A DNA stretch of 42,151 nt from Prevotellaceae bacterium (lineage in GTDB: Bacteria > Bacteroidota > Bacteroidia > Bacteroidales > Muribaculaceae), in NCBI GenBank assembly GCA_021772015.1, contig JAETNS010000021.1, positions 1 to 42,151 of the forward strand. The letters run 5' to 3'. The notes beneath the pieces were generated by a model. The model did not search any database and was not told where the DNA came from. It was given only the letters and a program-made list of their open reading frames with translations. Made by a program: the position numbers and the translations under genes. Below, one piece after another: positions 6,459 to 17,308 of the stretch. The first letter of the stretch is position 1. The number at the start of each line of letters is the position of its first letter.

Positions 6459-6541
6459 CGAAAAAATACGGAATACACCTTGTTTTAGCCCCTAAACGCA
6501 GCCGGCGTGTTAACAACCATAAATTTATTGATGACCAAATG

Positions 6542-6597
6542 GCACATGTGCAAAAACATGTTAAACCAGGCGCATTTTTCCGCCATGAAACATGTTT
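6542..6597. promoter_or_regulatory. Cluster of three CATG-centred palindromes
   Basis: GCACATGTGC (6542-6551), AACATGTT (6555-6562) and AAACATGTTT (6588-6597) are perfect palindromes. The last occupies the expected -33 position of the leader promoter at 6616-6623. They could be operator sites for a dimeric regulator; no regulator can be named. Confidence 0.4.
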
Positions 6598-6623
6598 TAT
6601 AACACAAAAACATCCTACATTTG
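6588..6623 (+). promoter_or_regulatory. Promoter of leader module A
   Basis: The -7 box TACATTTG (6616-6623) matches TAnnTTTG. The -33 region is AAACATGTTT, with ATG (6592-6594) standing in for TTG at 21 nt. The homologous module at 12119-12234 has AAACTTG in the same place, which supports the assignment. Confidence 0.5.
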
Positions 6624-6628
6624 CATCA

Positions 6629-6692
6629 GTTTTTCATGGTATTAGATTTAAGGTAAGAAGATTATTCGTCGTGACGACGAGTAATTTTTTTT
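6629..6692 (+). ncRNA. Leader module A: candidate small RNA upstream of psd
   Basis: A short unit bounded by a promoter (-7 at 6616-6623) and an intrinsic terminator (6661-6692), with no ORF of note. It shares the core TTTTTCATRGTATTAGATT followed by an AAGRTAA-like segment with module B upstream of tnaA. The approximate 5' end is placed about 6 nt after the -7 box, predicting a transcript of about 64 nt. It may be an independent small RNA or a prematurely terminated leader of psd. I could not compare it with known RNA families. Confidence 0.5.
6661..6692 (+). terminator. Intrinsic terminator of leader module A
   Basis: ATTATTCGTC (6661-6670) pairs with GACGAGTAAT (6676-6685), ten pairs with one T-G wobble, loop GTGAC. 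Eight T follow (6685-6692). Its T-tract runs straight into the -33 TTTG of the psd promoter. Confidence 0.8.
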
Positions 6693-6720
6693 GTACTTGT
6701 GAAAAAAACAGCTAACTTTG
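6690..6720 (+). promoter_or_regulatory. Promoter of the psd operon
   Basis: TTTG (6690-6693), 19 nt, then TAACTTTG (6713-6720): a full Bacteroidetes consensus. It begins inside the T-tract of the preceding terminator. An 11-bp inverted repeat (6703-6713 and 6764-6774, AAAAAACAGCT and its complement) flanks the -7 box and start region. The 5' leader to ATG 6803 would be about 75 nt. Confidence 0.75.
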
Positions 6721-6802
6721 TAAACTGAAATCAAAAGAACGGCTGGCTGATACATTTTTTAGCAGCTGTTTTTTGACAAAACCACCACTGACCCACCTGT
6801 CG

Positions 6803-7474
6803 ATGAGAGTTAAGATCCACCGCGAAGGCACGAACATACTGATCATTTTGCTGGCAGTACTGCTGCTGGTGAACGTGCCATTGTGGATATGGCTTATAGA
6901 CTACATCTGGATCCCGATCACTGTCCTGGCGGCCTCAACTGTCTTCTACCTCTTGGTGGTCAACTTTTTCCGTTCCCCCCACCGCAATTTTCAGGGAAAT
7001 CCCGACAAGGTGGTAGTCGCTTCCGCCGACGGCAAGGTGGTAGCCCTTGAGGAGGTCTACGAACCGGAGTACCTCAAATGTGACTGCATACAGCTTTCAG
7101 TCTTTATGTCGCCCATGAATGTCCACGCCAACTGGTTTCCCGTTGACGGAGAAGTCATCTACTACAAACATCACCCCGGACGCTTCATGGCCGCGTATCT
7201 CCCCAAGTCAAGCACCGAAAACGAGCGTTCGACCGTGGTGATCCGAACCAAAGAGGGTCAGCTCGTGTTGATGCGACAGGTAGCCGGAGCCATGGCCCGG
7301 CGCATCGTGACCTACGCCCGCCCAGGAGACGAGGCTTCAATCGAAGACCATATGGGCTTCATCAAATTCGGATCCCGCGTAGACCTCTACCTGCCGAAAT
7401 CGACAACTATCCTGACGAAGCTCGGCGACAAGACTATCGGCGGCATCACAGAAGTCGGCCGGCTCAATCCATAA
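6803..7474 (+). CDS. psd: Phosphatidylserine decarboxylase proenzyme (short, archaetidylserine-decarboxylase-like type)
   Basis: Converts phosphatidylserine to phosphatidylethanolamine at the inner membrane. Two hydrophobic segments near the N-terminus (about 12-55) anchor it. The self-cleavage site that makes the pyruvoyl group is Gly190-Ser191 in IKFGSRVDLY, as in the short Psd class (instead of LGST in the long E. coli type). The HANWFPVDGEV region is also typical. I chose ATG 6803 (223 residues, MRVKIHREG), the family's usual beginning; an in-frame TTG at 6773 would add 10 residues. pssA follows after 12 nt, so substrate and product steps are co-transcribed. Confidence 0.93.
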   Translation: MRVKIHREGTNILIILLAVLLLVNVPLWIWLIDYIWIPITVLAASTVFYLLVVNFFRSPHRNFQGNPDKVVVASADGKVVALEEVYEPEYLKCDCIQLSVFMSPMNVHANWFPVDGEVIYYKHHPGRFMAAYLPKSSTENERSTVVIRTKEGQLVLMRQVAGAMARRIVTYARPGDEASIEDHMGFIKFGSRVDLYLPKSTTILTKLGDKTIGGITEVGRLNP

Positions 7475-7486
7475 GAGATTGCCATA

Positions 7487-8236
7487 ATGTTTTTAAGAAA
7501 GATCATAACTTCCGTACCCAACACACTGACCCTCTGCAACCTCGTGTCAGGCTGTCTGGCTTGCATATGCGCATTCTCGTTTGACAGCGACATCCAGGCC
7601 CTCGGAGGTCTCAACGGCCGCCAGCTCGCATGGATATTGGTCGGGCTTGCCGCCGTATTCGATTTCTTCGACGGCGCAGCCGCCCGTTGGCTCCATGCCC
7701 CCTCCCCTCTCGGAAAAGAGCTTGACTCTTTGGCCGACCTTGTCAGCTTCGGAGTGGCCCCCTCTCTGCTGCTTTACAATATCCTGAGCGTCTGGACCGG
7801 CTCATGGTGGATCCCCTTCGTGGCCCTGTTCATCCCCGCAATGGGAGCATTGCGGCTGGCCAAGTTCAACCTCGACGACTCGCAGGCCACAGAATTCAAA
7901 GGTCTGCCGATACCGGCAAACGCCATCTTCTGGATAGGCGCTACCGCCTGGATGCAATCCCACGCCTCCCAATGGATGCACACTCATGTCTACTGGGGCA
8001 ACCTTATTGTCAGTTCGGTGATAATCATTGTGGCCCTGCTGATGGTCTCCAACATGAGAATGTTCTCCCTGAAGCTCAAGAACTTCCGCATAGGCGACAA
8101 TCTGCTGCGATATATCCTGCTTGTCGCCGCCGTGGCGTTTGTCGCGATATTCGGGGTGGAAGGCTTCGCCTACACCATCATCCTTTACTTCCTCTTGTCT
8201 GCATTCGCCCTGACCCGCATCGGCCAAGCCGCCTGA
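7487..8236 (+). CDS. pssA: CDP-diacylglycerol--serine O-phosphatidyltransferase
   Basis: Makes phosphatidylserine from CDP-diacylglycerol and L-serine, the step before Psd. The CDP-alcohol phosphatidyltransferase signature is complete: DG, AR, G, then two Asp (DFFDGAAARW followed by GKELDSLAD, about residues 64-87). Several membrane segments follow (about 95-240). The 249-residue length fits the Gram-positive/Bacteroidetes PssA class, not the larger PLD-like E. coli enzyme. It is 12 nt after psd. Confidence 0.95.
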   Translation: MFLRKIITSVPNTLTLCNLVSGCLACICAFSFDSDIQALGGLNGRQLAWILVGLAAVFDFFDGAAARWLHAPSPLGKELDSLADLVSFGVAPSLLLYNILSVWTGSWWIPFVALFIPAMGALRLAKFNLDDSQATEFKGLPIPANAIFWIGATAWMQSHASQWMHTHVYWGNLIVSSVIIIVALLMVSNMRMFSLKLKNFRIGDNLLRYILLVAAVAFVAIFGVEGFAYTIILYFLLSAFALTRIGQAA

Positions 8237-8273
8237 CAGACTTACGCCAACCAAACACACCTCTTTATTGCCC

Positions 8274-8648
8274 ATGTCTTTGTTTTTAATAATCTTCCTT
8301 ATAATAATATTTTACCTCTTCATACGTCCCGCATGGAGAGTCTGGAAAGCCGTCAACTCGGCCCGCAGACAAGCCCGCGAGATGAATGACGCATTCCGGC
8401 GCGCCGCCGGAATCGACCCGCAGGAAGAGCGCGCCCAGGAGGCTGCCCGCAAGAAAGCCTCGCGCAAAGGAGGATGGACCTCTCCCCGCCCCAAACCGAA
8501 GAAAATAGATCCCGCCGTAGGGGAATATGTCAAATTCCAGGAAGTGACCGTTGAAAGCACCTCACAGACAACTGATGACACACAAGCCCCGAAGACAACC
8601 CTTGTCGAACAACAGATTGAAGATGTGAAATGGGAGGACATAGTATGA
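8274..8648 (+). CDS. DUF4834-like small membrane protein of unknown function
   Basis: A 124-residue protein with one N-terminal membrane segment (about 2-22, MSLFLIIFLIIIFYLFIRP), then a basic, Arg/Ala/Lys-rich helical stretch (about 25-80) and an acidic tail ending WEDIV. This layout matches the Bacteroidetes family DUF4834 as I recall it; the function is unknown. I use ATG 8274 rather than TTG 8268. The gene lies 37 nt after pssA and its stop overlaps the next start (ATGA, 8645-8648), which suggests coupled translation and a link to the phospholipid cluster. Confidence 0.75.
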   Translation: MSLFLIIFLIIIFYLFIRPAWRVWKAVNSARRQAREMNDAFRRAAGIDPQEERAQEAARKKASRKGGWTSPRPKPKKIDPAVGEYVKFQEVTVESTSQTTDDTQAPKTTLVEQQIEDVKWEDIV

Positions 8649-9364
8649 AAACCACCAACTACATCCCCCCGCTGTATGAATTTCTTTCGGAACTTGGTCG
8701 CCGGCAGGACCGCCAATGGTTCAAGGACAACAAAAGCCTCTACGACGATCTGCGCGGAATGTGGATCGCCGACATCGACAGGCTCATCAACCTGTGCGGT
8801 CAATGGTGGCCGCAGGTGAAAACCCAGACAGGCAAGGAATCTGTGTACCGCATCTACCGCGACACACGCTTCTCGCCTGACAAATCCCCCTTCAAGACCT
8901 ACTTCTCGGCCACAGTATCTCCACGTGGTCGCTCCTCCTCGGCCGCCCACCTGCCGGGCTACTATATCCAGGTCGGCCCCGGGCGCGACGGAGGAGCCAC
9001 CGACGGATACGAGGCAGATGCGAGCGGCCTGTATGGCGGCCTCTGGTGTCCGGAAAGCGCGATACTTAAAAAGCTGCGCAAAGCAATCATCGACAACATC
9101 GACGAGTTCGAGGAGATAATCAACGAGCCACAGCTCAAGCAGCTCTTCCCGGGATGGTACGGACCGCAGCTCAAGACCGTCCCCAAAGGTTACGACCGCG
9201 ACCATCCCCAGGCCGCGTTGCTGCGCCTGAAAGAATATGGCAAATTCAAACCCGAAGGAATTGAATTTTTCAGCGATCCATCCTGGCCGGAGAAAGCCGC
9301 CGGATATTTCCAGGTCTTGTACCCGTTGCTGAATTTCCTCGAATATTCCATAAACGAGGAGTAA
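8645..9364 (+). CDS. DUF2461 (TIGR02453) family protein
   Basis: A soluble 239-residue protein of unknown function. It has the family's early motif (FLSELGRRQDRQWFKDNK), the following VYRIYRDTRFSPDKSPFKTY block (about 63-82) and YYIQVGPGRDGGATDGYEA. No catalytic residues are established for the family as far as I know. Start ATG 8645 overlaps the upstream stop in an ATGA arrangement. An upstream in-frame start (8630) would overlap more and adds only five residues. Confidence 0.85.
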   Translation: MKTTNYIPPLYEFLSELGRRQDRQWFKDNKSLYDDLRGMWIADIDRLINLCGQWWPQVKTQTGKESVYRIYRDTRFSPDKSPFKTYFSATVSPRGRSSSAAHLPGYYIQVGPGRDGGATDGYEADASGLYGGLWCPESAILKKLRKAIIDNIDEFEEIINEPQLKQLFPGWYGPQLKTVPKGYDRDHPQAALLRLKEYGKFKPEGIEFFSDPSWPEKAAGYFQVLYPLLNFLEYSINEE

Positions 9365-9412
9365 GCTGACAAAAACAATCATCTCCGCCGCCCTGAATCT
9401 GTGAAAATTTCG

Positions 9413-9420
9413 TATCTTTG
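9413..9420 (+). promoter_or_regulatory. -7 box before pfkA
   Basis: TATCTTTG matches TAnnTTTG and lies 45 nt before the pfkA start. The -33 side is weak: CTG at 9393-9395 is the nearest candidate, 17 nt away. Confidence 0.4.
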
Positions 9421-9465
9421 CCCCGGAGATTCACTATCTGAAACAACATCAAACACATAAGAGTC

Positions 9466-10446
9466 ATGGCAGAAATCAAATGTATCGGCATACTGACATC
9501 CGGAGGTGACGCGCCGGGAATGAACGCCGCAATCCGAGCCGTCACCCGCGCGGCCATATTCGGCGGATTCAAAGTCAAAGGCATCTACCGTGGATACCGT
9601 GGACTGGTGACCGACGAAATCGTCGAGTTCACCACCGCCAACGTCTCCAACATCATCCAGAGGGGAGGCACAATACTCAAGACCGCCCGATGCAAGGAAT
9701 TCCAGACCCCGGAAGGACGCCAGCTCGCATACGACACACTCAAACGCCACGGCATAGACGCATTGGTTGTAATCGGCGGTGACGGCTCACTGACCGGAGC
9801 ACGCATTTTCGCCAATGAGTTCAATCTCCCCATCATCGGGCTTCCCGGCACCATCGACAACGATCTCTACGGCACTGACACCACCATCGGCTACGATACC
9901 GCCCTGAACACCATCATGGAGTGTGTCGACAAGATCCGCGACACCGCCACCTCCCATGAACGCCTCTTCTTCATCGAGGTCATGGGGCGCGACGCAGGCT
10001 TCCTCGCCCTCAACGGAGCCATCGCCTCCGGAGCAGAAGCCGCCATCATCCCCGAGATATCCACCGAGGCCGACCAACTCGCCGACCTGATATCCAACGG
10101 ATTCCGCAAAAGCAAGAACTCATCGATAGTACTGGTCGCTGAAAGCCCCGTCACCGGCGGCGCGATGGCCATCGCAAAACGAGTCGAGGAGGAATACCCC
10201 CAATATGACGTGCGCGTCTCGATTCTCGGACACCTCCAGCGGGGCGGCTCCCCGACAGCCCACGACCGCATCCTCGCCTCACGCATGGGAGCAGCGGCCA
10301 TAGACGCTTTGCTCGATGACCAGCGCAACGTAATGATCGGCATCAAGAACGACGAGATCGTCTACGTCCCCTTCGTAAAAGCCATCAAGAACGACAAGCC
10401 TATCAACCGCGACCTGCTCAACACCCTGCGCCGTCTCTCCATCTGA
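9466..10446 (+). CDS. pfkA: ATP-dependent 6-phosphofructokinase
   Basis: Phosphorylates fructose 6-phosphate in glycolysis. The 326-residue protein has [13 protein letters not shown] (12-24), GGDGS (104-108) and [12 protein letters not shown] (127-138, with the catalytic Asp in TIDND), and the later [13 protein letters not shown] segment. Gly in the fourth position of GGDGS and PGTIDND rather than PKTIDND are features of ATP- rather than pyrophosphate-dependent enzymes. It stands alone between the DUF2461 gene (102 nt before) and a terminator. Confidence 0.96.
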
Positions 10447-10461
10447 CATATACCGAAAGTA

Positions 10462-10478
10462 AGAGGGTGTTTAACAAC
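10462..10478 (+). repeat. Copy 1 of the dispersed 17-nt motif
   Basis: AGAGGGTGTTTAACAAC differs at one base from the motif at 17447 and 42036. It is followed by ACACCC, so GGGTGT...ACACCC can form a short hairpin just after pfkA. Confidence 0.6.
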
Positions 10479-10497
10479 ACACCCCCGATATACAACA

Positions 10498-10540
10498 GGC
10501 CATCCGGATCAAAGCCCTAAGCTGTTCCGGATGGCCTTCT
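10498..10540 (+). terminator. Terminator of pfkA
   Basis: GGCCATCCGGA (10498-10508) and TCCGGATGGCC (10526-10536) form a perfect 11-bp stem with a 17-nt loop, followed by TTCTGTAT. The T-tract is short. The stem resembles the central part of the inverted repeat at 12466-12541. Confidence 0.6.
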
Positions 10541-10565
10541 GTATGATCCGCGTAATCTACGAGAG
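10537..10565 (+). repeat. Degenerate copy of the 29-nt ATCTGCG...GCGAGAG repeat
   Basis: These 29 nt match 12513-12541 at 23 positions, in the same orientation, and end in the shared CGAGAG. As at 12513, a CCATCCGGA-type hairpin lies immediately upstream. With the other copies it brackets tnaA. Confidence 0.6.
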
Positions 10566-10616
10566 CTTTACAGCTGAAAGAGATCCGGCGTGATCAGGAT
10601 TCTCCGATTGAGGTAT

Positions 10617-11996
10617 TCAAGCGTCGGCAGGAGCCAGCTTGACTGTGAAGTGGCGCATCAGCTCGGCCTCCCAGACAATACGCAGACCGCGGGTGATCGA
10701 CTCGCGGCGGTCATAGACATTCTTGAGGGCGACGGCGATGACATCCATGTGGTTGTCGGTGTAGACGCGGCGCGGTATGGCCAGACGCAACAGGTCGAGA
10801 CCACCGAAACGGTTCTCACGGGTCACGGGATCACGGTCGGCAAGGATATAGCCGATCTCGCATCCTCTGATCCCGGCCTCACGGTAAAGCTCCACGGTCA
10901 GTGTCTGCGCCGGGAACTCCTCACGCGGGACATGAGTCAGCACCTTCGACGCGTCGACGAAGATCGCATGACCGCCGGCAGGCCGCTGGTAAGGGATCCC
11001 GAACTCATCGAGGCGTTTGGCCAGATACTCGACCTGATGGATGCGGGTATGCAGATTGTCAAACTCCGTGTTCTCTTCAAGGCCGACGGCGAGCGCGTCC
11101 ATGTCGCGGCCGTTCATTCCTCCGTATGTCAGATAACCTTCAAACGGGATGCAGAAACGCTTCGCGCCCTCATACCAATCCTCATGACGGGTAGCAATGA
11201 AACCGCCCATGTTGACAATGCCGTCTTTCTTGGCCGACATGGTCATAGCGTCGGCAAGGGAGAAGATCTCCTTGACGATCTCCTTGATGGAACGGTCAGC
11301 CTGCCCCTCCTCACGTGTCTTGATGAAATAAGCGTTCTCAGCGAAGCGGGCCGAGTCGAGAACGACACGCTTGCCCCATTTGTCAGCCACGCGGCGGACA
11401 TCGCGCAGATTCTGCAGCGATACAGGCTGGCCACCGGCGGTGTTGTTGGTGATGGTGACTATGATGAACGGTATTTTGTCGTGGTGCTCCTCCAGAGCCT
11501 TCTCCAGTTTGGCGATATCGACATTCCCTTTGAAGGGGACCTCCAGCTGGGTGTCTTTCGCCTCATCGACAGTGCAGTCGAGCGCGAACGCCTTGCGGCT
11601 CTCGATATGCCCCTTGGTGGTGTCGAAATGGGAGTTTCCGGGTACAATGTCACCCTCCTTGACAAGATGGCTGAAAAGCACATTCTCGGCGGCACGGCCC
11701 TGATGGGTGGGTATGAAATAGTCGAACCCCGTAAGGCGGTTGACGACATCTTTCAGGCGGAAGAAAGACCGCGCTCCCGCGTAGCTTTCGTCACCCATCA
11801 TCATCGCGGCCCATTGGCGGTCGCTCATCGCGCCGGTCCCGGAGTCGGTCAGCAGGTCAATGTAGACCTGGTCGGCCCGGAGCTGGAAGACATTGTAATG
11901 CGCATCACGGAGCCACTGCTCGCGCTCCTCGCGCGTGCTCTTGCGGATAGGCTCGACCATCTTGATTTTCCAGGATTCAGCAAAAGGTAATTCCAT
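10617..11996 (-). CDS. tnaA: Tryptophanase (tryptophan indole-lyase)
   Basis: PLP enzyme that splits L-tryptophan into indole, pyruvate and ammonia. Its close relative is tyrosine phenol-lyase, so specificity residues matter. The PLP lysine is K257 in MSAKKD. Position 125 is Asp in HFDTT (tryptophanase type; Thr in the phenol-lyase). Position 381 is Ile in CEIG, where the phenol-lyase has the phenol-binding Arg. H449 in MRHFT matches the tryptophanase C-terminal His. The 459-residue length is normal. No tryptophan permease is adjacent and no TnaC-like leader peptide is evident. The gene is preceded by a promoter at 12084-12114 and leader module B. Confidence 0.93.
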   Translation of the reverse strand: MELPFAESWKIKMVEPIRKSTREEREQWLRDAHYNVFQLRADQVYIDLLTDSGTGAMSDRQWAAMMMGDESYAGARSFFRLKDVVNRLTGFDYFIPTHQGRAAENVLFSHLVKEGDIVPGNSHFDTTKGHIESRKAFALDCTVDEAKDTQLEVPFKGNVDIAKLEKALEEHHDKIPFIIVTITNNTAGGQPVSLQNLRDVRRVADKWGKRVVLDSARFAENAYFIKTREEGQADRSIKEIVKEIFSLADAMTMSAKKDGIVNMGGFIATRHEDWYEGAKRFCIPFEGYLTYGGMNGRDMDALAVGLEENTEFDNLHTRIHQVEYLAKRLDEFGIPYQRPAGGHAIFVDASKVLTHVPREEFPAQTLTVELYREAGIRGCEIGYILADRDPVTRENRFGGLDLLRLAIPRRVYTDNHMDVIAVALKNVYDRRESITRGLRIVWEAELMRHFTVKLAPADA

Positions 11997-12083
11997 GGTT
12001 TTGATCAGTTGAAAAGTGAAGGTATCTTTTGATTTAAGGTATTATAGTTCCATCCGTGATTCCAAGGCGGAATTTTACGGAGC

Positions 12084-12114
12084 GCAAGTTAGTCAAAAAA
12101 TCCGTGGTACGCAA
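12084..12114 (-). promoter_or_regulatory. Probable proximal promoter of tnaA
   Basis: On the minus strand TTG (12114-12112) is followed after exactly 20 nt by TAACTTGC (12091-12084), a near match to TAnnTTTG. It begins five bases past the T-tract of the upstream terminator. The tnaA leader would be about 80 nt. Confidence 0.45.
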
Positions 12115-12118
12115 GAGG

Positions 12119-12151
12119 AAAAAAATAAAAGGTCGTTTCACAACGACCTTT
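12119..12151 (-). terminator. Intrinsic terminator of leader module B
   Basis: On the minus strand AAAGGTCGTT pairs with AACGACCTTT (12151-12142 and 12137-12128), ten perfect pairs closed by a GTGA tetraloop, followed by TATTTTTTT (12127-12119). It is a textbook terminator lying 122 nt upstream of the tnaA start on the same strand. Confidence 0.85.
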
Positions 12152-12193
12152 CTCCTTTAAACCTTTATCTTAATCTAATACTATGAAAAACAC
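12119..12193 (-). ncRNA. Leader module B: candidate small RNA upstream of tnaA
   Basis: Homologous to module A (6629-6692). Both share TTTGCAT at the -7 box, then GTTTTTCAT, then GTATTAGATT and an AAGATAA-like segment, and both end in a hairpin with a GTGA-containing loop and a T-tract. The predicted transcript is about 75 nt. No start codon with an ORF of useful length is present, and there is no Trp codon array, so a TnaC-like peptide is unlikely. It could be a stand-alone RNA or an attenuator for tnaA. Confidence 0.55.
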
Positions 12194-12199
12194 ACAATG

Positions 12200-12234
12200 C
12201 AAAGTTCGTCATTAATTTTGAAACTTGCAAGTTT
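12200..12234 (-). promoter_or_regulatory. Promoter of leader module B with palindromic -33
   Basis: TTG (12230-12228) is followed after 20 nt by GAACTTTG (12207-12200). The -33 element lies inside a perfect 14-nt palindrome, AAACTTGCAAGTTT (12221-12234), which could bind a regulator. Confidence 0.6.
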
Positions 12235-12401
12235 TTTGTGAAATATTTTCTTACTCAATCGGCTTCCGCCATACAGGCGCGCATGATCTTCGCTGATAAT
12301 CAAAAAATTATATCTCAAGCCGAGGATCGGCCAATCACTTATTTAACAATAATTAACTCACGAAAGCCAACATTTTGAATGTTATCCCACGAAGTCTTTT
12401 C

Positions 12402-12636
12402 GATTCCACGGAAAGCGGTACGCTCCGCTCTCCGAGTGTTTTGCCTCACGCAGATCAATAAAAGGCTCTCGCAGATTACACGGATTACACAGATTAGCCA
12501 TCCGGACGGCTTATCTGCGTAATCCGTGTAATCTGCGAGAGTTTTCTTGTTATCTGCGGGAAATCTGCGTAATCTGCGAGAGGTTCCGGCGGGGAGCGGA
12601 GCGAACCGCTTTCCGCAGAATCGTCTCCGTGGAATC
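12402..12636. repeat. Nested inverted-repeat element between tnaA and bioB
   Basis: Outer arms 12402-12434 and 12590-12622 are 33 nt each and match at 29 positions as inverted repeats. Inner arms 12466-12494 and 12513-12541 are 29 nt each with one mismatch, around an 18-nt centre containing CCATCCGGA. A third, direct partial copy of the inner unit lies at 12552-12582. A second GATTCCACGG end (on the minus strand) reaches 12636 and overlaps the bioB stop codon. No ORF is present. It resembles a MITE- or REP-like element; the family is not identified. The remaining gap 12235-12401 shows nothing recognisable. Confidence 0.8.
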
Positions 12637-13674: not shown

Positions 13675-13756
13675 CGATATCATGTATTCTCACATCGGCT
13701 GTGTGGATTCCCTTTATATAACCGGACTGACTGTTTAACAACCATATTAAGTGCTT

Positions 13757-16700
13757 ATGCTAAAGAAGTTACCCCTCTTGCTGACAGGATTGGCGACTGC
13801 CGGTGTCATAACCGCGATCGGATTCGTCGCAAGCAAAGACAACATGATTGTCCCATCTTCCGCCGAAAAGTCACCCACGGCAGCTCCAATGCTGACCAAG
13901 CTCGGCTCCACCAAGACCATCCCCTTGCGCGCGCCTGAAGGCGGCTACACCGCTCCGGTGACTTTCACACCTACCCAGGAGCAGTTCGCCGAATGCACAA
14001 TCATCGATGTGAACGACGACGGCACCAAGTGGAAACTCGATGACGGATATTTCAAATATACTTACAATTCCTCAAACGCCGCCGATGACTGGTGCATCCT
14101 CCCGGCGATGAACCTTGATGGCGGCACATACAAGATCACTTACACCTACCGCACACGCTCTGACCAGGAGAACTTCAGGATGTGTGTCGGCCAGTCGACC
14201 GATCCCGAATCCATGACAGTGACGGTCATGGAAAAGACCGGCTATTCCAACCAGACCGATGTCACCGAGAGCCGCACAGTGGAGCTCGCCGCCGGAGAAT
14301 GGCATATCGGGCTTTACGCTTTCTCCGAAAAGTATAAGTTCGCCATAATGTTCAAGAATATCTCGATAGAGAAACTTGACATGAGCGCGCCCAAATCTCC
14401 CGCCCTGTCACTGGAGGCCGACGGTCTGGACTGCACTGTTACTGTGACGCTCCCGGCCGAGACCCTCGGCGGGGAGCCACTGACAGCCTCGGCTGTCAGC
14501 GCGACCGTCCTCCTCGATGAGCAGCCCATCAAGAACGGAACCTTCTCCGGCGCTCCCGGCGATTCTCAGGCTTTCACTTTCAATGTGGAAAGCAGCGGCA
14601 ACCATACCATCTCGGCTATCGCGACCGTCGACGGAGTTGAGTCAGAGCCTGCGGCCATTGACCACAAGTTCTCAAAGAAGCAACCCGTCCCCACCCCGAT
14701 GGGATATACTTTCCTTCCCGACAACGATGAGTTCGACTGGTGCACTGTCATCAACTCAAATGACGACAACACAACATGGGCATGGGGTGATACCGGATTC
14801 CCGTATGAAGGCAATGCCGGCGACGGATCTTTCCGTTACATGTATTCCTATTACAATACCGGTGATGACTGGATCATACTACCGGCTTTCGAGGCTGGAG
14901 AAGCAGGAGCCAGGAAACTCACTTTCAATGTGGCCACAAAATACGACAATGAATCCCTGGAAGTATGCATGGCCTATGAACCTACCGTAGAGGCCCTCAG
15001 CCAGAATGTGGTCTGGAAGAAAGAAAACTTCCAGTATCCCGACGGGTTCGAGACGATGGAAGCCATCTTCCCTGTCGAGGAAGGACGTGAATTCTATATC
15101 GCGTTACATGCCATCTCACCGGCAAGTGCTTCATTCCTTTATGTGCAGAACGTATGTGTCAATGAGACCGACGGCTCCGCGCCTCAGGCCGGAAGCCTGT
15201 CTGATCCGACTTTCGACGGTGGGGACGGCACTGTCACCCTGACTTTCCCGACCAAAAACCTCGGTGGCGGCGACATGGACGCATCCACCGCCATATATGC
15301 AGACCTCATGCTTGACGGGGAGCCTTACGGAGAACCGCTCCAAGGCACTGCCGGAGAAAGCAAGCAAATTGAATTCAGCGGTCTTTCTCTTGGAAGCCAT
15401 ACTCTCACAGCCACAACATACGCTTTTGGAGAGAATGATGAGAAAATCGGCAACCAGGCGGCATCAATCTCATTCAAATGCCGTATCTCCTCCTCCTTCT
15501 CCTATCAGGTTCCCCTCGAGCTGCCTCTCAACTCAGAGGTGGTCGACAATTTCCTGATCATCGATGCCAACGAGGACGGCAAGACATGGACAGGCGAGAC
15601 AGGATGGTTCATCTATGAGTACCATGCATCCAACCAGGCTGACGACTGGTTCATATCCCCCGCTGTTGAAATAACAGACATATCCACTCTCTATGAAATA
15701 GGAGTCAGCGCCAAATGTCAGTCAGGCAGCATGCCGGAGACTCTGGAGATATTCATCGGACGCGAACAAAGCGTCGCCGGAATGACCACCCAGGTCGTGG
15801 CTCCAACAGAAGTCACCAATGAGGGCGTTACCTGGAAAGTATTCGATAACACAATAGCCATCAATGAGCCGGGACGCTACTATGTAGGGGTACATTGCCT
15901 ATCAGAGGCCAACAAGTACAACCTCATGGCCAACACTCTGATTTTCAAGGCCAGTGAAGCTACCAACAACAGCCCCGGAGCTGTCACCGACCTTGCCGGC
16001 GACGGACTGGAGACAGGCGAGCTGATGGCCGATGTCACTTTCAGGTTCCCGACCACCAGCATTGGCGGGGAGACCATCGACCCCGAGACCGATCTGACCG
16101 CCACAATCGTCTCCTCGACAGAAACAAAGACTGTTGAAGGGAAACCGGGCCAGGAGGCAACCTTGAGGATCGCCTGCCCCGCAGGAAAGAGCGATGTCAC
16201 CGTCACCGTCTCATCTGAAGCCGGACAAGGCCCGAGAAACACCATCGAGGTCAGCTGCGGACTCGACCGGCCGACCGCCCCGGTGATAACCGCCCTCACC
16301 GTATCCGAGGACAACATGAGCGTCAAGATCGACTACGCGGCCATCACGACAGGGGTGACCGGCGGCCATGTCAACCCCGACGGCATGGACTATTATCTCT
16401 GGGAATGGGACGAAGATGATGAAGACTGGTACCAGATCGATGTCACCGACCAGCTCTCCATGACTTACGAACTTGACTATCCCACCCAACCGCTGACCGC
16501 TCTCACCCTCGGCCTGCAGGCTTACAACGGCCTTAACTCCGGCTCAGCCATGACAGCGTTCTCCGTGGTGCTCGGTGTGCCCCACGCTCTGCCGATGGAG
16601 GAGACCTTCGAGCATGGAGCCCTCCATTACACCCCCGTTACCCTCAGCTCGTCGCTTGAAAGCGACTACGCTCCCGTCTGGGGAATCGTAGACCCGTCAG

Positions 16701-17308
16701 AGATCATCCCCGGCGTGACTTCGGCTGAAGGAGGATATGCCCTTTACGGCCATACATCCTTCAACCTCGGCGACTCATTCATCGGCCTGCCGAAATTCTC
16801 GACCGAAAACGTTGATGACGCTGAAATAGAGATTTCGACCTACCACCATCCCGCATCCTGCGAGCTGACTCTCATGGCCGCCACATACGGAATGGACCGG
16901 TACACTATCCTTGGCAAAGTAGAGATCCCGCAGACCACCGACGGATGGAAGAAATTCAAGTTCCCGCTTGGCGAAAGCCTTTCCAACCGCCCGTGGGTAG
17001 ACGCGCGCCTGCATGTCAACTTCACCGGCGGCAGCTCTTCGATCCCGATGATCGACTCTTATGTCATCCGCTCCGCCTCACAATCAGGTGTCGGCAATGT
17101 GTCAGACCATACTGACGGATCAGTGACCGGCGTGACCGGAGGAATCCTCTTCACAGGCTTCGGGGGCGAGACCGCCCGCGTGTTCTCACCTGCCGGAATG
17201 CAGATAACCGCAGCCGCCATCTCCGGCGACAGCCTCGTTGTCCCCGTCTCTGCCGGAATATACGTGGTAAGCGTTGGCGACAAAGCATTCAAGGTAACAG
17301 TGAAATAA
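13757..17308 (+). CDS. Large secreted modular protein with three adhesin-like beta-sandwich modules and a sorting-like C-terminus
   Basis: A 1183-residue exported protein of unknown function. It has an N-terminal hydrophobic segment (about 5-25). Three related modules follow, marked by an aspartate-rich turn then DDW-(C/I/F)-I-(L/S)-PA: ADDWCILPA near 108, GDDWIILPA near 368, ADDWFISPA near 627. These resemble the cleaved-adhesin/choice-of-anchor J fold. Each is followed by an Ig/Fn3-like stretch with a LGG or IGG motif. A fourth, diverged module begins near 941. The last about 70 residues (GVGNVSDHTD to FKVTVK) look like a type IX secretion sorting domain. I use ATG 13757; GTG 13751 is an alternative. 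Confidence 0.8.
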   Translation: MLKKLPLLLTGLATAGVITAIGFVASKDNMIVPSSAEKSPTAAPMLTKLGSTKTIPLRAPEGGYTAPVTFTPTQEQFAECTIIDVNDDGTKWKLDDGYFKYTYNSSNAADDWCILPAMNLDGGTYKITYTYRTRSDQENFRMCVGQSTDPESMTVTVMEKTGYSNQTDVTESRTVELAAGEWHIGLYAFSEKYKFAIMFKNISIEKLDMSAPKSPALSLEADGLDCTVTVTLPAETLGGEPLTASAVSATVLLDEQPIKNGTFSGAPGDSQAFTFNVESSGNHTISAIATVDGVESEPAAIDHKFSKKQPVPTPMGYTFLPDNDEFDWCTVINSNDDNTTWAWGDTGFPYEGNAGDGSFRYMYSYYNTGDDWIILPAFEAGEAGARKLTFNVATKYDNESLEVCMAYEPTVEALSQNVVWKKENFQYPDGFETMEAIFPVEEGREFYIALHAISPASASFLYVQNVCVNETDGSAPQAGSLSDPTFDGGDGTVTLTFPTKNLGGGDMDASTAIYADLMLDGEPYGEPLQGTAGESKQIEFSGLSLGSHTLTATTYAFGENDEKIGNQAASISFKCRISSSFSYQVPLELPLNSEVVDNFLIIDANEDGKTWTGETGWFIYEYHASNQADDWFISPAVEITDISTLYEIGVSAKCQSGSMPETLEIFIGREQSVAGMTTQVVAPTEVTNEGVTWKVFDNTIAINEPGRYYVGVHCLSEANKYNLMANTLIFKASEATNNSPGAVTDLAGDGLETGELMADVTFRFPTTSIGGETIDPETDLTATIVSSTETKTVEGKPGQEATLRIACPAGKSDVTVTVSSEAGQGPRNTIEVSCGLDRPTAPVITALTVSEDNMSVKIDYAAITTGVTGGHVNPDGMDYYLWEWDEDDEDWYQIDVTDQLSMTYELDYPTQPLTALTLGLQAYNGLNSGSAMTAFSVVLGVPHALPMEETFEHGALHYTPVTLSSSLESDYAPVWGIVDPSEIIPGVTSAEGGYALYGHTSFNLGDSFIGLPKFSTENVDDAEIEISTYHHPASCELTLMAATYGMDRYTILGKVEIPQTTDGWKKFKFPLGESLSNRPWVDARLHVNFTGGSSSIPMIDSYVIRSASQSGVGNVSDHTDGSVTGVTGGILFTGFGGETARVFSPAGMQITAAAISGDSLVVPVSAGIYVVSVGDKAFKVTVK

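Follow-up and report, generated by a model that had tools for sequence, protein, structure and literature searches.

The locus considered here raises the question of what two homologous modules upstream of psd and tnaA are, each composed of a promoter, a leader, a terminator and a further promoter, and what governs their transcription. In the analysed stretch of DNA of 42,151 nucleotides, designated the window, module A occupies positions 6588-6720 of the plus strand and module B positions 12234-12084 of the minus strand, coordinates which the earlier note had given correctly. As described there, both modules contain the common core TTTTTCAT[G/A]GTATTAGATT, a -7 box (TACATTTG at 6616-6623, plus strand, in module A; GAACTTTG at 12207-12200, minus strand, in module B) and a hairpin with a GTGA/TGA loop followed by a T-tract. 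The terminator hairpins with their T-tracts were placed at 6655-6692 (plus strand, by folding and stem comparison) and at 12117-12152 (minus strand, by folding), and the next promoter is close by, beginning inside the T-tract in module A and shortly past it in module B.

The note had offered small RNAs or attenuators as identities, of which the former is retained and the latter is not. Both RNAs pass the gathering score of 56 for the FopS family (RF04319, Rfam 15), that of module A (subtype I, 6627-6694, plus strand) with 58.5 bits and that of module B (subtype IV, 12119-12193, minus strand) with 58.7 bits. Modules A and B are members of FopS, a family of paralogous small RNAs (sRNAs); the RNAs are new, the family is known. 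Like FopS of Bacteroides thetaiotaomicron, they have the same 5' core or seed, a single terminator hairpin, a promoter of their own and paralogues. The conserved single-stranded 5' core precedes one terminator hairpin in both RNAs, and that of module A (6630-6648, plus strand), delimited by conservation, corresponds to the seed region R1/R1' of the published FopS (PMC11697453). A promoter with a Bacteroides-type -7 box is present in both modules, that of module A being devoid of a TTG -33 box. In the genome from which the window derives (2.86 Mb, 48 contigs, 99.99% complete), a covariance-model search detected five FopS copies that exceed the gathering score and a sixth at 41.6 bits, and blastn with module A matched four places. 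A FopS match at E up to 0.01 was obtained in all 37 family genomes searched, the own one included, and scores above gathering in 41 of 61 genomes searched across the order. Judged by psd, the closest named relatives are uncultured genomes assigned to Porphyromonadaceae, Bacteroidales or Muribaculaceae, so that the organism most likely belongs to Muribaculaceae, whereas the literature, as represented by PMC11697453, stresses Bacteroidaceae.

The compensatory variation of the hairpin stems is borne out by the further copies, and the check proposed in the note, a search for more copies with pairing stems, had a positive outcome: among the matches listed, 143 of 150 FopS copies can pair over 6 or more positions of the stem, with 3-6 pair types per position, a count biased towards pairing, since the search itself looked for pairing. 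Both RNAs fold better than shuffled sequences (module A, z -3.5, none of 200 shuffles as good; module B, z -2.5, 4 of 200 as good). The Bacteroidales-1 motif, which had been named as an alternative identity, remained below the Rfam gathering score, and within 6500-12500 a search relaxed to E of 1 gave no match to it either. GibS (RF04182) was rejected as an identity, the window copies reaching 37.2 and 31.3 bits where 115 would be needed for gathering; the 5' core R1 is common to GibS and FopS, but GibS is longer and has a second seed. No homology to Spot 42 of Escherichia coli was detected, the gathering-level Rfam matches in the window being tRNA and FopS only.

In B. thetaiotaomicron, FopS transcripts are short (about 65-75 nt) and repress susC-type mRNAs, and 14 of them associate with RbpB, a protein of the RRM-1 type; FopS-10 pairs through its 5' seed with the start region of the mRNA for a susC-type transporter, whose translation is thereby blocked (PMC11697453). 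The FopS RNAs of the window differ from these in that no RRM-1 protein was detected beside them and in that the promoter of module A contains an operator of the Cur type, described below. In the window's genome no RRM_1 match was found at E up to 0.001, a threshold at which the control, Bacteroides ihuae, gave a match, and RRM_1 was detected in 1 of 37 family genomes, whereas outside the family 16 of 24 genomes have it. The partnership with RbpB is a reported trait of FopS which lies outside the Rfam definition. FopS persists where RRM-1 proteins go undetected, a very divergent RRM-1 protein being possible. With respect to targets, a search of the own genome for complements of the seed yielded ten hits, six of which are the fopS genes themselves, and one of the remaining four has an ATG at the plausible start of a 287-aa secreted-looking protein. 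Among seed duplex energies for 28 gene starts of the window, three, including that of tnaA (-19.2), were lower than the 1% level obtained with random stretches of the window, a comparison in which the composition of gene starts is uncontrolled; owing to this composition, nothing is drawn from these energies.

The alternative of a leader or attenuator function for psd (phosphatidylserine decarboxylase, 6803-7474, plus strand; Pfam PF02666 and NCBIfam) and tnaA (tryptophanase, 10617-11996, minus strand; NCBIfam NF053783 over cut-off and Pfam PF01212) is suggested by the fact that each module precedes its gene in the same orientation, an order which is found for both genes in the window's genome and recurs in the two nearest relatives. 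Against this, separate promoters come after the terminators, namely TTTG-N19-TAACTTTG for psd (6690-6720, plus strand; TTTG at 6690-6693, TAACTTTG at 6713-6720) and a putative TTG-N20-TAACTTGC for tnaA (12084-12114, minus strand; TTG at 12114-12112, TAACTTGC at 12091-12084). The letters of the psd promoter are conserved in three congeners (L013-L015), and a related TAAATTGC is seen in both tnaA orthologues compared. FopS stands just upstream of psd only in the three nearest of 80 psd loci from other genomes, a set in which 3 loci covered less than 300 bases upstream of psd, and four more FopS copies of the own genome are located elsewhere. As FopS has been published as a stand-alone sRNA, as the psd and tnaA promoters follow the terminators, and as the order FopS-psd occurs in 3 of 80 loci, the attenuator reading is unsupported; the modules are unlikely to be attenuators or leaders of psd or tnaA, and we give this alternative hardly any weight. 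A scan for sigma-70-type promoters was uninformative (5 found versus a mean of 4.4 in shuffles). Elsewhere in the window, positions 13751-17308 encode a large protein of 1185 aa whose sole match is a C-terminal DUF6383.

The earlier note had further described a -33 palindrome shared by the two modules, which does not hold as one feature. In module B, AAACTTGCAAGTTT (12234-12221) consists of the letters around an ordinary TTG -33 box, and in the two orthologues compared (L013 and L015) the TTG is kept and the palindrome is not; the promoter (12200-12230, minus strand) is composed of TTG at 12230-12228 and GAACTTTG and has no Cur-type box. In module A, AAACATGTTT (6588-6597) captures, out of register, the conserved dyad CATGTTTTATAACACA (6591-6606, plus strand), the orthologues of which read TATGTTTTAAAACATA in L013 and L015 and TATGTTGTAAAACATA in L014. 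The palindrome of module A is therefore wrong in the form described, yet it overlies the published site of a regulator, Cur: CATGTTTTATAACACA has 10 of the 12 arm letters of TATGTT-N4-AACATA, a dyad equal to the published Cur consensus.

An alignment of copies revealed that module A and its relatives have this dyad in common. The set of fopS promoters was made up of 154 loci among the matches listed and the copies of the own genome, which amounted to at least 150 distinct copies from 42 genomes; L265 was left out because it has no core, and three copies with a weak core were kept. Among the matches listed, the dyad was present with at least 10 of 12 letters and in one narrow register, the commonest offset placing it at roughly -34 to -19 relative to the start of the RNA, in 59 of 150 copies, and 34 of the 42 genomes had at least one such copy, while 29 other palindromes obtained by permuting the arms gave a maximum of 3 and a median of 0 in the same register. 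In a blind count over the same listed matches, comprising 36,864 six-letter palindromes with spacers of 0-8, the dyad ranked first with 55 of 150 copies at 11/12 or better; a looser count (64/163) was set aside as it contains chance core matches. The consensus of the 59 boxed copies among the matches listed is AAAA-n-TATGtTgTAtAACATA-AAA, and in 52 of them the TTTG of the -7 box stands 11 or 12 nt past the dyad. A TTG -33 box was found in 6 of these 59 copies versus 55 of the 91 listed copies which, like module B, have no core box, so that the core box and a TTG -33 seldom occur together.

Within the genus of the window, and again among the matches listed, the core box is present in all 27 copies with a ATTATTCGTCG-type stem (subtype I) and in none of 38 others, two of which carry the dyad (at least 10/12) further upstream; the Fisher value of 7e-19 for this link overstates independence, because the genus copies are related by descent. 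Subtype I copies in other genera of the family have the box in 15 of 28 cases among the matches listed. The box of module A has two mismatches, module B has no box, and the second boxed copy of the own genome matches at 11/12. Since the RNA subtypes in this genus differ in promoter type, FopS paralogues are not all alike, in contrast to B. thetaiotaomicron, for which no strong sign of sub-diversification has been described in the FopS paper (PMC11697453). A further subtype with the stem GGCTGTCGTGAGACAGCC is represented by C8:13527-13605 of the own genome and 12 more genus copies (e.g. L169, L240, L246 and L249); its promoter is conserved, near GTATAAWTACTATATTTGCACTGTG, most copies are devoid of both a Cur box and a TTG -33, and it is perhaps under another regulator.

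The exact dyad together with a -7 box was found in 90 of 149 genomes of the family, with no reversed-pattern match in any of the 149, and order-wide in 34 of 295 genomes, with a single reversed match in one genome. In a subset of the sites found, counted from 30 loci and 80 further stretches, 74 of 108 distinct exact-dyad sites lead to FopS, 13 to longer FopS-like RNAs and 21 elsewhere. The window's own genome has no exact dyad with a -7 box, and dyads with up to 2 mismatches are not enriched in it (135 versus 126 in the control), so our claims rest on near-exact, in-register sites. Four exact dyads occur in this genome, none of them before fopS, and several of its sites with 0-1 mismatches are near genes which we do not know as Cur targets. 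In L460, L461, L464, L228 and L229, exact dyads with a -7 box precede other genes, identified by eye from the protein starts as lon-type (in the divergent lon/fusA2 region), a TypA-type GTPase, glyceraldehyde-3-phosphate-dehydrogenase-like and PEP-carboxykinase-like; these are possible further Cur targets.

The published consensus of Cur/BT4338, wwwTATGTTnTAnAACATAwww (PMC3878776, PMC6989115), is identical with the fopS dyad, the central nTAn/TA included. In the genome of the window, the likely cur gene is the one at C38, the best HTH_Crp_2 match (nearest solved relative 2gau), which is taken as cur on the grounds of its box, family and conservation, its identity with the BT4338 protein being inferred. 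The fusA2 region is the one bound most strongly by Cur (PMC6989115), and BT4338 is autoregulated from a site at its own gene (PMC3878776). The dyad at 10/12 or better lies upstream of fusA2 in all 27 orthologues compared (an overlapping shift of the motif, the next best permutation, reaches 13/27), in a set of 30 of 56 matches from which three were dropped as the start was not found; the name fusA2 (EF-G2) derives from the NCBIfam best hit of a partial protein. For the likely cur gene, 21 of 29 orthologues have it over the promoter (12/29 for the next best permutation, again an overlapping shift), where it mostly sits directly after a TTTG-type -7 box; this set consisted of 30 of 53 cur-type matches, one being dropped because the anchor was not found. 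In the own genome, both fusA2 and the likely cur gene have 11 of 12 letters. A Cur orthologue is thus likely to be present in the window's genome, and the promoter of module A appears to carry a Cur-type operator, to which Cur would bind. The resemblance to the Cur/BT4338 regulon comprises the same palindrome with central TA and the occurrence of the dyad at fusA2 and a Crp-family gene as well; the regulon papers, as far as considered, do not list FopS among the members, and the fopS box is in the core promoter, whereas that of fusA2 is upstream (PMC6989115, PMC3878776). A co-occurrence of FopS and close relatives of the likely Cur in 24 genomes of other families was discarded, as it tracks relatedness and proves nothing. 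In one relative, a fopS copy without a core box, at G020:C11:358262-358329 (minus strand), is divergent from fusA2 (358592 onward, plus strand), the fusA2 box lying between them.

Our preferred reading, to which we assign a probability of roughly 0.6, is that Cur directly controls, and probably represses, the FopS subtype with an operator in its core promoter; binding, sign and transporter targets are what we infer. Modules A and B are free-standing FopS genes, each with its own promoter, a single-stranded 5' seed and a terminator hairpin, and Cur, a member of the Crp family, would bind the operator in the core promoter of subtype I and keep RNA polymerase off. With sugar in plenty, Cur would be silent, FopS on and transporter translation off; with sugar scarce, Cur would be active, FopS off and the transporters released. 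Module B, with its ordinary promoter, would not be expected to respond directly to Cur. The position of the boxes points to this sign: the fusA2 box is located about 32 nt upstream of the -7 box and upstream of the -33 TTG (sequences counted by eye), which suits activation, and the fopS box in the window's family covers the -33 region and the spacer, which suits repression. Repression is further in line with published data: compared with glucose, high-mannose N-glycan lowers FopS about 3-fold (PMC11697453), the FopS level runs counter to that of GibS, which peaks on mucin (PMC11697453), Cur targets are up on mucin (PMC10994844), glucose and fructose silence Cur (PMC10294740), and polysaccharide-utilization genes need Cur without having been seen bound by it, an intermediate regulator being offered as one explanation (PMC6989115). 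The induction of FopS by bile salts (PMC11697453) is not explained by Cur. Roc, for its part, depends on Cur and on the roc leader, and the three sRNAs overproduced in the published test of this dependence had been selected for their increase under carbon limitation (PMC10294740), a choice by which an sRNA repressed by Cur would have escaped notice.

The position of the box differs between lineages. In Bacteroides and Phocaeicola it is found (at least 9/12 letters) at -60.5 in 9 of 15 copies and in the core in one, the set being composed of copies from B. finegoldii, B. ovatus and P. massiliensis; left out beforehand were L391 (GibS), L398 (no clear FopS), two Prevotella and two phage copies, and the latter four have no box. 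In Parabacteroides distasonis, a core box is present in 3 of 4 copies. The single core box of the Bacteroides and Phocaeicola set, that of L379 (12/12), rests on its perfect match and not on the count, as one permuted palindrome scores 5 in the core register of this set. In E. coli, CRP commonly activates from sites at about -60. As the wiring differs between lineages, data from B. thetaiotaomicron are not simply transferable, and the sign of control may differ. An alternative is accordingly that Cur binds the fopS boxes but activates, so that starvation would raise FopS and shut transporters without substrate. It would fit the box at -60.5, upstream of the TTTG/TTG -33, in these 9 of 15 Bacteroidaceae copies, the activation of fusA2 by Cur from an upstream box, and MasB, a published Cur-activated sRNA (PMC10994844), but it conflicts with the coverage of the core promoter by the box in the window's family, with the lower FopS level on N-glycan than on glucose (PMC11697453) and with the need of polysaccharide-utilization locus (PUL) induction for Cur (PMC6989115); on balance, we regard activation as unlikely, if a serious contender.

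Two other explanations concern the dyad itself. It could be read by a Crp-family protein other than Cur, as the genome has further HTH_Crp_2 matches, the second of which, at C42, is well over cut-off, and as this arm spacing is shared across the Crp/Fnr family; in 21 of 29 orthologues of the C38 gene, however, the gene's own promoter has the dyad, and so has fusA2, both as published for Cur, which makes another reader of the site improbable. That the dyad is a passive remnant of the duplication of fopS with its promoter might be supposed from the recent duplication of some copies (the C27 copy is 83% identical to module A over about 144 bases in blastn). Among the matches listed, though, the letters of the box are conserved within a variable surrounding sequence, and none of the 27 subtype I copies from the genus lacks the dyad; the register in Bacteroides, moreover, is a different one. 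We therefore consider a mere remnant very improbable and retain direct control by Cur as the reading of the core-promoter box.

To our knowledge, the sRNA MasB is not related to FopS. Both are tied to Cur, MasB of B. thetaiotaomicron being directly controlled by it, but MasB is a single gene, is activated and has BT_1675 as target (PMC10994844). The closest parallel in regulatory logic is provided by Spot 42 (spf) of E. coli, where an sRNA directed against sugar-use mRNAs is itself repressed by a regulator of the Crp family (PMC3295665, PMC5991649). The likeness is restricted to the proposed logic, in which the repression of FopS by Cur is presumed, and Spot 42 is otherwise an unrelated RNA of another phylum, encoded by one gene and not by several. 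With less confidence than the preferred reading, at somewhat below even odds, we suggest that FopS is the counterpart of Spot 42 in Bacteroidota, that a Cur-FopS double-negative loop is the missing link to PUL output, that the box has moved between lineages (core promoter in Muribaculaceae and Parabacteroides, -60.5 in Bacteroides and Phocaeicola), altering size or sign of the response, and that FopS acts free of RbpB in most Muribaculaceae.

A Cur operator in FopS promoters would join two open points, the regulator of FopS and the polysaccharide-utilization genes that depend on Cur yet are unbound by it: repression of FopS could explain a higher output of polysaccharide loci without Cur at their promoters. 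The operator suggests a link between sugar supply and the control of sugar transporters and, if the reading is true, gut Bacteroidota would possess an sRNA loop for catabolite control comparable to the one in E. coli. The main text of the FopS paper, which calls a possible transcriptional regulator unknown, names Cur once in passing and does not contain the terms 'palindrom', 'inverted repeat', 'operator' or 'BT4338' (PMC11697453). In the literature covered, chiefly openly accessible journal papers, no mention was found of a link between Cur and FopS, of a Cur-type operator in a FopS subtype, of its change of register between lineages or of FopS without detectable RRM-1 proteins.

Several fopS-related loci were encountered besides. 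The phage records L400 (Bacteroides phage BX-TP2) and L386 (MT836368.1) have fopS-like genes without a Cur-type box of at least 9 letters, and a phage copy of fopS has already been mentioned in the FopS paper (PMC11697453). FopS copies with changed seeds, e.g. GTTATTCATGGTATTAGTTTTAAGG, stand behind Cur-type boxes in L179, L181, L182 and L200-L202, those of L179 and L200 having no Rfam gathering match. Finally, thirteen longer FopS-like RNAs of about 150 nt were found downstream of exact Cur-type boxes (L183, L184, L427, L430, L431, L440, L441, L490-L494 and L497). None of those scanned reached a gathering score in Rfam, two scoring 36.6 and 31.5 bits against FopS. They are composed of a variant FopS 5' core, a first hairpin, in most of them a second FopS-like core (AATGGTATTA...GGTTAATT), and a terminator, an arrangement which makes them a candidate family of two-seed sRNAs.
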